From positions 62,001-126,000 of the forward strand of contig VFZG01000007.1 of NCBI GenBank assembly GCA_016871275.1: a stretch of DNA of 64,000 nt, written 5' to 3'. Position 1 is the stretch's first letter, and every line of letters begins with the position of its first letter. Positions 14,717-29,310 of this stretch are shown in pieces. The notes under the pieces are model-generated. The model made no database searches and had not been told where the DNA came from. It saw only the letters and a list, made by a program, of their open reading frames with translations. This DNA comes from Acidimicrobiia bacterium. GTDB taxonomy: Bacteria > Acidobacteriota > Vicinamibacteria > Vicinamibacterales > UBA2999. Position numbers and translations under genes: made by a program.

Positions 14717-15649
14717 ATGCTGGCGAGAGTGGGAACGTGGATCGTGGGACTTGGGGCGTGGGCCATGGTCATGAGCATCACCGGGTCGGCGCAGTACACC
14801 AAAAAGACCAACGTCGCGCACCGCGGCGCGTCGGCCTATGCGCCGGAACACACGCTGGCGGCCTACCGGCTGGCGATCGAGATGGGCGCCGACTTCGTCG
14901 AGCAGGATCTCGCCGTTACCCGGGACGGCGTGCTGATTTGCCTGCACGACGCCAGCCTCGAGCGCACCACCAACGTCGAGCAGTTGTTTCCAGGCCGGGT
15001 CAGCACGCAAACGATCGAAGGCAAGACCCGCCAGGCCTGGCTCGCCAACGATTTCACGCTCGCCGAGATCAAGACGCTCGACGCGGGATCGTGGTTCGAC
15101 AAGAAGTACGCCGGCGAAAAGATCCCGACCTTCGATGAAGCGATTGCGCTGATTCGCGGCAAGGCCGGCATTTTCCCTGAGCTGAAGACGCCCGAGATCT
15201 ACGCCGGCCGTAACGTCGAGTTCGAACAGCTGGTGGCCGCCGCGCTCGAGAGGAACGGGCTGCGCGGCCCGAAGGCCGATCCGAAGACGCCGGTGATTCT
15301 CCAGACCTTCGGACCATCGAGCGCGCGCACCCTGGCGCAGATCAAGATCGGTGTGCCGGTGGTGCTGCTGCTCGGCAACGACGAGGGCTTCAAGACCGCC
15401 GCCGACCTCAAAGCCTGGAAGGGCATTGTCCAGGGCTTCGGGCCCGCGAAGAACATCGTCTTTCGCAATCCCGACTTCGTGAAGTGGGCGCACGCCGAAG
15501 GCATGACGGTCACGCCCTATACGTTCCGATCGTCAGATGTGGGGAAGACCAACTTCCGGGACGTGTCGGAAGAGATGTCGCACTATCTCTACCGACTGGG
15601 CGTCGACGCGCTGTTTACCGACAACCCCGACCGATTCCCGCGAAAGTGA
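14717..15649 (+). CDS. Glycerophosphodiester phosphodiesterase
   Basis: The 310-aa protein has a signal peptide (WIVGLGAWAMVMSITGSAQ). The GDPD fold shows catalytic His in NVAHRGASAYAPEHT, metal ligands in DFVEQDLAVTRDGVLICLHD, and a C-terminal strand VDALFTDNPDRF. It releases glycerol-3-phosphate from phospholipid head groups in the periplasm. The large insertion after the first His region (about 75-110) is normal for GlpQ-like forms. The start at ATG 14717 is supported by GGAGAGG 8-9 nt upstream; an upstream in-frame ATG would precede the signal peptide. The gene ends in a 7-nt array. Confidence 0.9.
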   Translation: MLARVGTWIVGLGAWAMVMSITGSAQYTKKTNVAHRGASAYAPEHTLAAYRLAIEMGADFVEQDLAVTRDGVLICLHDASLERTTNVEQLFPGRVSTQTIEGKTRQAWLANDFTLAEIKTLDAGSWFDKKYAGEKIPTFDEAIALIRGKAGIFPELKTPEIYAGRNVEFEQLVAAALERNGLRGPKADPKTPVILQTFGPSSARTLAQIKIGVPVVLLLGNDEGFKTAADLKAWKGIVQGFGPAKNIVFRNPDFVKWAHAEGMTVTPYTFRSSDVGKTNFRDVSEEMSHYLYRLGVDALFTDNPDRFPRK

Positions 15650-26670: not shown

Positions 26671-27810
26671 TCAGCCGCGACCACGGTTCCGCAAAGGCCA
26701 CACCGTCTGCGGGATGAGATCCGGCGGCACCGGATCGCCCTCGATGCCGTAATGCTCCGGCCATCGATCGGCCGGCTCATAGGCGGTCCCGAACAGCCGA
26801 TCGATCCACGGCAGGTGCACCGCGAAGTTCTTGTCGATCGCCGCGCGCTCCTTCGCGTGATGCCAGTGATGGAATCGCGGTGTCACGATCCATGGCTCCA
26901 GGCGGCTCAGGTCGAATCGCACGTTGGCGTGAATGAACACGGCGTGGAACGACACGAATACCAGGTAGGCCGCGACCGCTCGCTGATCAAACCCCAGCGC
27001 AAACAACGGACACACCACGATGGCCCGCGTCACGATCACGTCGACGATGTGCAGCCGGGAGCCGGCGAGCCAATCCATATCGATGCTCGAGTGGTGAATG
27101 GCGTGGAACCGCCACAATGCCGGCACGGCGTGAAACGCGCGATGGATGCCGTACTCCGCCAGGTCGGCGCAGAGCAGCACGGCGGAGAACTGGACGACCA
27201 ACGGCAGGTGCGCGATGGCGCTGCGCCACGCCTGTCCGTCGAGCGCGACGAATGCGGCGTGCGCCGGCGCGAGGATCAAGAACGTCGTGACCTGTACGAA
27301 CAGGTGGCTGGTCAGGAAATAGAGCGTGTCTGTGGTCCAGCCCGGCCGGAACGTGCTTTGCTCGGGACGCAACGGCCATCGCCGCTCCATTGGCACGAAC
27401 AGTGCCGCGAGCAGCAGGACGTTGAGGGCGAACCAGTCGAGGCCCAGTGACGGCGCATCCGCGTTCGACAGTGTGAAATCGATGCCGCTTCCGCCGAGGA
27501 TGGATGCGATCGAGGCGAGCGACATACCGAACAAGCCCATCACCTTGCGGCGGCGGAGTGCGGTCGAGATCAATCCGAGGATGAACGCCAGCACGATAAC
27601 AACCTGAAGGATCGCACGTGCCCAGTTCAGTGGCAGGCGGGCCCGGACCTCGGCGGTGGTCAGGTAGTCGGGGAAGAGGAAGCACGCCACTCCGGCCATG
27701 GCGAGCGAGCCACAGAACACCGACGCGGCGCCGCTCCACCAGCCGGATCCCAACGTCGTCGGCTCGTCATCGTCGAACGCTCGCTTGAACGCGCGATCGA
27801 GATCGCTCAT
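26671..27810 (-). CDS. Sterol desaturase/fatty-acid hydroxylase family membrane protein
   Basis: The 379-aa protein has about six hydrophobic segments and the di-iron histidine motifs of the family: HRAFH, WRFHAIHHS, a middle HAVFIHANV and FHHWHH. It should hydroxylate or desaturate a membrane lipid using O2; the substrate is not readable. The first ~120 residues are an extra membrane region. The ATG at 27810 is at the edge of the 31-bp inverted-repeat element, whose arm supplies everything directly upstream (no ribosome-binding site). Downstream is the non-coding rimP leader region. Confidence 0.88.
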   Translation of the reverse strand: MSDLDRAFKRAFDDDEPTTLGSGWWSGAASVFCGSLAMAGVACFLFPDYLTTAEVRARLPLNWARAILQVVIVLAFILGLISTALRRRKVMGLFGMSLASIASILGGSGIDFTLSNADAPSLGLDWFALNVLLLAALFVPMERRWPLRPEQSTFRPGWTTDTLYFLTSHLFVQVTTFLILAPAHAAFVALDGQAWRSAIAHLPLVVQFSAVLLCADLAEYGIHRAFHAVPALWRFHAIHHSSIDMDWLAGSRLHIVDVIVTRAIVVCPLFALGFDQRAVAAYLVFVSFHAVFIHANVRFDLSRLEPWIVTPRFHHWHHAKERAAIDKNFAVHLPWIDRLFGTAYEPADRWPEHYGIEGDPVPPDLIPQTVWPLRNRGRG

Positions 27811-27917
27811 TTGTAACGGGGACTGACCCCACACCCCCCGAAATCATCGCAGGTTTTGCCGCCGTGGCAATAACTGACACGTTTTTGGGGGGTGTGGGGT
27901 CAGTCCCCGTTACAAAT
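27809..27917. repeat. 109-bp element with perfect 31-bp inverted repeats
   Basis: Left arm 27809-27839 and right arm 27887-27917 are perfect reverse complements (ending ATTTGTAACGGGG at the outer ends), with a 47-nt AT-richer centre. The element exactly fills the space between the desaturase start codon and the rimO stop codon, both of which overlap its ends. It looks like a REP/MITE-type non-autonomous element; no transposase is present in the window. Confidence 0.95.
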
Positions 27918-29266
27918 CAGAGCGGGCGGGCCACCAGGTCGTACTCTTCGGCGCCGACGATCTCGACGTCGATGAACGAGCCCGGGGCGACGGCAGACGG
28001 ATCGCAGTCGGTCAGATACACAACCGGATCGATCTCCGGCGCCTGGCCGGGCAAACGGCCCTGCAGCACGAGCTCGTGCTCGGGCGACGTGCCGTCGACC
28101 ACCAGCCGCGTCTTTTCGCCGAGCCGCGCCTGCTGGCGCCTTGCGACAATGTCGCGCTGGCGGGCCATCAGCCGCTTCTGCCGCTTCTGCTTGGTCGCCG
28201 CGGGCACGTCGTCTGTCATCTCGTATGCCGAGGTGCCTTCTTCGTGCGAGTAGGTGAAGACGCCGACGTGATCGAAGCCGATCTCTTCTATGAAGCCCTC
28301 GAGCGCCGCGAAATCTTCGGCCGTCTCGCCAGGAAACCCGACGATGAACGTGGTGCGAAGCGCGACGGTGGGAATGCGGGCGCGGATGTTGTCGAGCAGC
28401 CGCTGGTACGACTGCCGCGTGCCGGGCCGCTTCATGCGCTTCAACACCGCGTCCGAGGCGTGTTGCAGCGGCAGGTCGATGTACTTCACGACCTTGTCGA
28501 GATCCGCGATGGCGTCGATGACGTCGCTGGTGATGGTCGTGGGATACAGGTAGAGCAGCCGGATCCACTCAATGCCGTCCACCTCGTTCAGCGCGCGCAA
28601 CAGCCGCGGCAGCGCGCCGCGCTCGCCCCGGTCGATGCCGTAGAAGGTGGTGTCCTGCGAAATCAGCAGCAGCTCTTTCACGCCCTGCGATGCCAGGTGC
28701 GCCGCTTCCTGGACGATCGATTCGACCGTCCGGCTGCGATAGTGCCCGCGCATCTTGGGGATGATGCAGAACGCGCACCGGTAATCACAGCCCTCGGCGA
28801 TCTTGATGTACGCGTAGTGGCCGGGAGTGACGCGCTTGCGCGGCGTGTCGGCGTCGTAGATGTAGTTGGGCAGGTCGACGCCGAACACCGGCGCTGTGCG
28901 GTGAAGCGTCAGCGGTTTCACCCCCGGCGCGAGTGCTTTCACGAAATCGGGAACTTCTCCGGTTCCGTAAATCGCGTCGATCTCGGGGATCTCCTTCTTC
29001 AGCTCGTCCCGATAGCGCTCGGCCAGACAGCCGGTCACCACCAGCTTGCGGCCTGCGGCCTGCTTCTTCAGCTCGGCCATCTCGAGGATGGTGTCGATGG
29101 ATTCCCGCTTGGCCCTGTCGATGAAGGCACACGTATTCACTACCAGGACGTCGGCCTGCGACGCGTCGGCGGTAATCTCGTGCCCTTCCTTCTCGGCCAT
29201 GCCGAGCATGACTTCGGAATCGACGAGATTCTTGGGGCACCCCAGGGAAACGAACCCGATCTTCAT
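27917..29266 (-). CDS. rimO: Ribosomal protein S12 methylthiotransferase RimO
   Basis: The 449-aa radical-SAM enzyme adds a methylthio group to S12 Asp. The N-terminal MTTase domain (GFVSLGCPKNLVDSEVMLG; VVNTCAFI; VVTGCLAERY) supplies three Cys for one cluster. The radical-SAM motif C-x3-C-x2-C is in GCDYRCAFCIIPKMRGHYRSR, and a C-terminal TRAM domain ends in EEYDLVARPL. RimO rather than MiaB is indicated by CPKNLVDSE. The start ATG 29266 is 45 nt after asnS; it has a weak GAGAG upstream. Its stop abuts the inverted-repeat element. Confidence 0.95.
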   Translation of the reverse strand: MKIGFVSLGCPKNLVDSEVMLGMAEKEGHEITADASQADVLVVNTCAFIDRAKRESIDTILEMAELKKQAAGRKLVVTGCLAERYRDELKKEIPEIDAIYGTGEVPDFVKALAPGVKPLTLHRTAPVFGVDLPNYIYDADTPRKRVTPGHYAYIKIAEGCDYRCAFCIIPKMRGHYRSRTVESIVQEAAHLASQGVKELLLISQDTTFYGIDRGERGALPRLLRALNEVDGIEWIRLLYLYPTTITSDVIDAIADLDKVVKYIDLPLQHASDAVLKRMKRPGTRQSYQRLLDNIRARIPTVALRTTFIVGFPGETAEDFAALEGFIEEIGFDHVGVFTYSHEEGTSAYEMTDDVPAATKQKRQKRLMARQRDIVARRQQARLGEKTRLVVDGTSPEHELVLQGRLPGQAPEIDPVVYLTDCDPSAVAPGSFIDVEIVGAEEYDLVARPL

Positions 29267-29310
29267 GGGAGCTCTCAAGTGTAGCAGGTGCGACGTTCTG
29301 GCCAGCGTGA

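Follow-up and report, generated by a model that had tools for sequence, protein, structure and literature searches.

The hairpin that fills the gap between rimO and a gene of the fatty-acid-hydroxylase superfamily in the window (the whole stretch of 64,000 nucleotides that was analysed) is, with high probability, a small non-autonomous mobile repeat, most likely copied into this gap by the RAYT-type transposase encoded on contig C27 of the same genome. With its two inverted half-units of 48 nt it is a REPIN-like dimer, and could as well be called the TIR dimer of a TIRtron. The C27 enzyme, a Y1 (HUH, single-tyrosine) transposase, would have copied the element in between the two genes by working in trans on the hairpin core at each end, in single-stranded form. 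We infer that the C27 RAYT binds and moves the repeat by way of a single-stranded intermediate, and that the difference from the relative lacking the element is due to an insertion here rather than to a loss there. In what follows, G000 is the window's own genome (3.96 Mb), other G numbers are the genomes compared with it, and C numbers are contigs.

The Element between rimO and the Hydroxylase Gene

The preliminary description of this DNA had reported perfect inverted arms of 31 nt, and these are there: positions 27809-27839 and 27887-27917 are exact reverse complements, with 47 nt between them. It was also right that the element fills the gene gap, its ends overlapping the ATG of the hydroxylase gene (the "desaturase" of that description; 27810-27808) and the TGA of rimO (27919-27917), both on the minus strand, with the A of the ATG falling within the element's edge (Table 1). 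The 47-nt centre, which had been called unrelated, turned out to belong to the palindrome, which is built of two inverted half-units of 48 nt and is imperfect in its inner part. The palindrome extends imperfectly to arms of 55 nt that are 85% complementary, with 5 nt between them, and columns 29-48 of the two half-units are 65% identical to each other, fitting the second conserved block of the family. Within the 31-nt arm, 19 nt (TGTAAC and the core) are the sequence common to the other exact copies of class A, the type of the C27 RAYT, and the last 9 nt (ACACCCCCC) are common only to a few close copies (nearly so to the dimer on C65, and to a single half on C42).

Table 1. Features of the element and its two neighboring genes in the window.
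Feature	Positions	Strand	Description or basis
REPIN-like dimer	27812..27914	.	TGTAAC...GTTACA, outer end to outer end, 103 bp
Dimer including TT/AA edges	27810-27916		
Left 48-nt half-unit	27812..27859	+	TGTAAC, core, variable ACACCCCCC, inner block; alignment; half-unit model match E=1.7e-10, the window copy itself being in the training set
Right 48-nt half-unit, inverted	27867..27914	-	Alignment; half-unit model match E=1.1e-9, the window copy itself being in the training set
13-nt hairpin core GGGGACTGACCCC, left	27818..27830	+	Exact-copy count
13-nt hairpin core, right	27896..27908	-	Exact-copy count
rimO, upstream gene	27917..29269	-	TIGR01125, 533 bits (cut-off 357); TGA abuts element
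Fatty-acid-hydroxylase-superfamily gene, 379 aa	26671..27810	-	PF04116, 102 bits (cut-off 31)

The very stable hairpin that had been foreseen is likewise real in prediction, the fold being far beyond chance on both the DNA and the RNA level: 27806-27920 folds at -49.6 kcal/mol (z -12.2) as DNA and at -83.9 (z -12.4) as RNA, each value being reached by none of 200 shuffles. An Rfam scan of 27700-28050 gave no match at gathering scores, and no target-site duplication was evident by eye, although the two flanks of the window element do share TGA.

A Repeat Family Dispersed in the Genome

The claim that the element is one of many REP-like copies was supported by a search of the whole genome, in which the exact 13-nt core occurred 19 times and a reversed-pattern control not at all, i.e., the window core, identical in both arms, is also present at 17 other places in G000. 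A single copy with no related elements, the outcome named beforehand as speaking against the idea, was not what the genome held. A looser core pattern, with up to 2 mismatches, gave 32 matches (control 0), two of which look like chance.

The alignment of 45 copies from G000, G007 and G004, gapless except for two G004 rows, gave the order of the 48-nt half-unit as TGTAAC, the 13-nt core, then bases that vary between copies (TTAACA or nCACC and a few bases), and the block TTTTGnTGCAGTTTCTGC. The model made from it, in which the training copies were 30 of G000's matches, 11 of G007's and 4 of G004's, found 31 halves in G000: seven dimers account for 14 of them, the flanks of two transposase genes for 4, and 13 stand alone. 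The dimers are of uniform size, 22 of the 25 measured in six genomes being 100-104 bp and the other three longer (126, 134 and 146 bp), and six of the seven in the own genome lie outside any ORF as called by a crude ORF caller. By the same caller, divergent gene starts flank the single half at C10:93826 as well as several other singles, which may have a promoter or operator role there. Halves like those of class B, the type of the RAYT on C68, are also dispersed in G000, and one chimeric dimer (C2:23681-23783) has one half of class A and one of class B.

Decay of dimers was considered as the source of the single halves and rejected, as no partner was found beside 15 singles (12 of the 13 own and 3 of G007), the lowest shuffle count being 8 of 200. 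Within the dimers of G000, columns 20-28 are more alike than between them (identity 0.81 vs 0.49; none of 5000 shuffles, all seven dimers), and for the four class A dimers alone the excess was reached by 43 of 5000 shuffles. The idea that the arms are kept alike everywhere by pairing or conversion had to be dropped as a family rule, given the corresponding counts of 3371 of 5000 shuffles in G004 and 5000 of 5000 in G001; several G004 inner blocks and that of G006 were off register by 1-2 bases in this test, so their inner-block identities are underestimated. For the core hairpin (3 pairs, 45 rows), 88% of the cells are paired vs 42-71% when the pairing is slid, and two of the three pairs have two-sided change; five covariation measures were reached by 27 to 386 of 500 shuffles, and the score is higher at slides +2 and +3 than in register.

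RAYT Genes Bracketed by the Repeat

The preliminary description had likened the element to REPs moved by RAYT enzymes and found no such gene encoded here. The likeness and the association both stood, as did the lack of a RAYT in the window, but a matching gene does exist in the genome. Pfam Y1_Tnp genes number five in G000 and none in the window, and the one at C27:15659-16222 lies between inverted half-units, with outer ends at 15578 and 16341, that carry the window's exact core. A second RAYT, on C68 and 68% identical to that of C27, is bracketed by class B halves (TGTATCCGGGACTGGCACC), and neither a short-string look nor the half-unit model found a half-unit of this family directly adjoining the Y1_Tnp genes on C5, C17 and C18 (30-34% identical to C27's). 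In the genus, all seven RAYTs that are at least 49% identical to the C27 protein are bracketed by inverted halves; they come from five genomes (two each from G000 and G007, and one each from G004, G006 and G001), the 49% line was drawn after the matches were seen, and the count leaves aside the RAYTs below it and two from other genera (G013 and G032) that are 51-52% identical.

The RAYT units of G000 and G007 measure 764-793 bp end to end, and the 48-nt ends of RAYT units and of dimers agree in sequence and orientation, features that would also suit a MITE-like derivative, i.e., an autonomous RAYT transposon that kept its ends and lost its gene by internal deletion, in place of a REPIN with a RAYT that does not move itself. 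We regard this origin as unlikely, since the C27 RAYT and one on C30 of G007 are at one locus, beside orthologous genes (the locus comparison being of that pair), and were probably inherited in place; the seven RAYTs are diverged, the others being 49-74% identical to C27's, and are not fresh copies; and the anatomy is equally that of REPINs.

The NHWH and Y-V-E-x-N-P motifs are kept in all seven proteins, with HxH and Y invariant, and PF01797 (Y1_Tnp) is above its cut-off in each. A profile of the seven matched E. coli TnpA_REP (4ER8) at 7e-7, two other transposase entries following at about 0.6. NF047646 (REP_Tyr_transpos) was matched by all seven at E<=0.001, its cut-off of 80 bits being reached only by the G001 protein (80.8 bits), with the own two (C27 64.1, C68 65.7) and those of G007 (58.8 and 48.7), G004 (69.4) and G006 (76.2) below it. 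In the four complete proteins of G000 and G007 (188-204 aa), Pfam finds only Y1_Tnp, a C-terminal helix-turn-helix being absent; the Pfam scan of the other three (G004, G006 and G001) covered the matched part only.

Empty, Shared and Altered Sites in a Related Genome

The notion that relatives might have an empty site proved correct in the same-genus genome G007, the one genome that shares the neighborhood, in which rimO and the hydroxylase gene are 15 nt apart with no element between them and the hydroxylase protein is 85% identical to the window's. Nothing in the window corresponds to the 15-nt spacer, which thus does not display a clean pre-insertion sequence. G007 has in addition an extra minus-strand ORF (stretch L049, 2618-3298), absent in the window, that separates the hydroxylase gene from the conserved gene next to it. 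The site of the dimer at C68:1507 has 13 nt of other sequence in G007, the element again being absent. At the site of the C65 dimer, G007 has an unrelated strong hairpin (C1, about 72815-72898; GAGGCACGGAG...CTCCGTGCCTC).

Some copies are nonetheless old, as one single half has been kept at orthologous sites (G000 C10:93826 and G007 C16:87131) and one dimer (G000 C3 and G007 C14) lies at one site with 77% identity over about 2.1 kb, beside the start of a gene that we take to be rpiB-like. From these shared copies it could be argued that the window element, too, is an old inherited repeat that no longer moves and was lost from the relative; this is improbable, as the two arms of the window element and 17 other places in the genome all have an identical core and two further dimer sites are devoid of the element in G007.

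At two of the shared loci, the core itself has changed. At the orthologous RAYT locus (G000 C27 and G007 C30), four positions of the core differ between the genomes, and they are the same four in both flanks (GGGGACTGACCCC vs GAAGACTGACATC); the core of the C30 flanks is also that of many dispersed copies in G007. In the C3/C14 dimer, positions 7 and 17 of the core differ alike in both arms, with a further difference at 15 in one arm and in columns 4-6 in the other. Of the 36 pairs that can be formed from nine dimers, only the own pair C7/C65 is more alike in its inner sequence, and the uncommon TGTAAA edge is kept in one arm, with the G000 centre 23 bp longer. Because core changes shared by two arms occur together with retained inner sequence and a retained TGTAAA edge, rewriting of the core in place, not re-insertion, is suggested, and it may be, though we advance this tentatively and with some doubt, that the recognition core of the repeat population was rewritten in place together with its RAYT. 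The differences at these two loci point to short-tract conversion or to a transposase whose specificity has shifted and which selects strongly on the core.

Half-Units and RAYT Flanks in Sister Genomes

At E<=0.1, the half-unit model gave 26 matches in G007, 23 in G004, 18 in G001, and 5 each in G005 and G006; the counts for G001, G005 and G006 are independent, as these genomes contributed no copies to the model. There was one weak match each in G003 and G008 and none in G002, and these three genomes have no close RAYT. The exception is G005 (85% complete), with its 5 matches, including a dimer, and no close RAYT, which counts against our explanation. The exact 17-mer was found in 2 of 60 genomes, own included (G000 and G007), in a search that the other cores of the sister classes escape. 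A scan of a genome collection for GTAAMGGGGACTGACCCC (from which own-genome records were maybe excluded) gave nine stretches, four of them in the MAG JAIEMQ01 and five single and scattered, the latter being at about or below the chance level, estimated at about 15 for 257 Gb.

Comparison of the sequences showed that the cores of the sister genomes are related but different and resemble the flanks of their own RAYTs. The comparison included 65 halves, with identity taken over columns 7-25 and a strict match defined as at least 94% to both RAYT flanks on average. Strict matches were found for 12 of 16 own halves with the G004 RAYT, 10 of 10 with that of G001, 2 of 2 with that of G006 and 4 of 9 with that on C32 of G007, and the best mean match came from own-genome halves for the RAYTs of C27, G007 C32, G004, G006 and G001. 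For C27 itself, only 2 of 26 dispersed own halves matched strictly (mean 0.79), which also counts against our explanation; these matches are few because columns 20-25 vary, and the exact 13-nt core of C27 is in 17 of 27 dispersed own halves. The C68 flanks had a higher mean match to G001 and G006 halves (0.87) than to the mixed own set (0.75), and at 94% or more they matched 8 of the 26 own halves, 2 of the 9 G007 halves, and no half from G001 or G006. For the G007 C30 RAYT, of whose class the table had only one dimer, the core GAAGACTGACATC was exact in 10 of 11 additional loci inspected in G007. Matches of 94% or more to a RAYT from another genome also occur in a few halves; by these figures, the matching of RAYT flanks to own-genome copies is not exclusive.

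Comparison with Known Systems

The likenesses and differences given here are to the published systems as they appear in the available portions of the papers cited. A REPIN is a REP doublet that forms a hairpin (Bertels and Rainey 2011, PMC3116915), and the window family resembles it in its two inverted conserved ends, its less conserved pairing spacer, its dispersal, and the matching repeats beside a RAYT. Three of the features by which such an element is recognized, namely an inverted pair in one hairpin, dispersed and mainly intergenic copies, and a RAYT bracketed by the same repeat, were found. The family differs from REPINs in having no GTAG-type tag, in having another block of conserved sequence (TTTTGnTGCAGTTTCTGC) beside the centre, and in numbering tens of copies, many of which are single halves with no detectable partner. 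A GTAG or GTGG tetranucleotide 5' of the hairpin is absent, with TGTAAC in its place, and the G001 and G006 copies read have no common tag.

For TIRtrons and their TIRYTs, Di Nocera et al. (2013, PMC3733652) describe TIR families that partly occur as dimers and a motif, GGGGWSAS, and they name a TIRYT group of acidobacteria. The system described here is similar in that a RAYT-like gene lies within long terminal inverted repeats and the TIRs are dispersed as singles and dimers; the motif corresponds to GGGGTCAG in the window arms, read outward, whereas several cores of the genus (GGTGCCAG and GATGTCAG, read outward) do not fit it. In the text available of PMC6006769, 20 of 26 TIRYTs belong to subclass 2.1, which has a C-terminal helix-turn-helix, unlike the four complete proteins here.

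The proteins share with RAYTs and TnpA_REP the Y1_Tnp domain and the HxH and Y..xNP motifs (PMC6006769, PMC8266576), 4ER8 being the closest solved structure, and differ in that six of the seven are below the NF047646 cut-off and that NHWH and YVE(Q/A/S)NP are absent from the motif sets of Table 1 of PMC6006769, as far as the paper was available. With IS200/IS605 (likewise in PMC6006769), they share an HUH single-tyrosine transposase that would act on hairpin ends; their tyrosine motif is of the NP type, vs Y---Q of class 1, and the close RAYTs have diverged from one another and are not near-identical copies. The window hairpin is best classed as a REPIN/TIRtron-type non-autonomous element of a RAYT, without the GTAG tag, and this kind of system has already been described. 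Four core strings, looked for in the available literature, turned up only in an unrelated paper.

Possible Consequences for the Neighboring Genes

That the hairpin might stop transcription either way was left without support, as the stem is not followed by a T-run on either strand. An intrinsic terminator was rejected from a direct reading of the sequence at and after the stem end (GTTACAAATGAG on the minus strand and GTTACAAATCAG on the plus strand); a terminator scan also omits the window hairpin, but it covers loops of 3-8 nt only, and the evidence is the direct reading. As for the suggested silencing of the hydroxylase gene, its start region is predicted to be about 98% paired (0.02 unpaired vs 0.44 in G007, the stretches differing in length), and this could block initiation. 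Equally, since the hairpin foot sets the rimO stop and the hydroxylase ATG side by side, a ribosome terminating on rimO would open that foot. Removal of the element would leave TGATG. As judged by its homologues, the hydroxylase protein has no sign of decay and is no more diverged than its G007 counterpart, the scores of the two (own/G007) to five distant homologues being 411/419, 372/380, 340/342, 299/296 and 305/294 bits. Inside the centre, and facing the hydroxylase gene, is a weak promoter-like match (sigma-70-like TTGCCA-16-GATGAT, 27870-27843, minus strand; 1 vs 0.0 expected).

A regulatory or terminator hairpin of the host, kept for the two genes and not mobile, could account for a very stable fold placed exactly at the stop/start junction, for a start region almost fully paired in RNA prediction, and for the one promoter-like match on the minus strand of the centre. 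We nevertheless consider it very improbable, given the 19 exact cores genome-wide, an orthologous G007 junction that does without the element, a stem with no T-run after it, and the same half-units bracketing transposase genes.

Broader Relevance

The mobile repeat that we propose in its place changes how this stretch of the genome is read, in that an apparent regulatory hairpin becomes a copy of a mobile element. In the experiments on RAYT target recognition described in the available part of PMC8266576, the enzymes are of groups 2 and 3 and the REPs are GTAG-tagged. The five related genomes have seven transposases with six different bracketing cores, none with the GTAG tag, and these include an orthologous pair with different cores; mixing such enzymes and hairpins could directly test the specificity of RAYTs and how dispersed repeats follow their enzyme.
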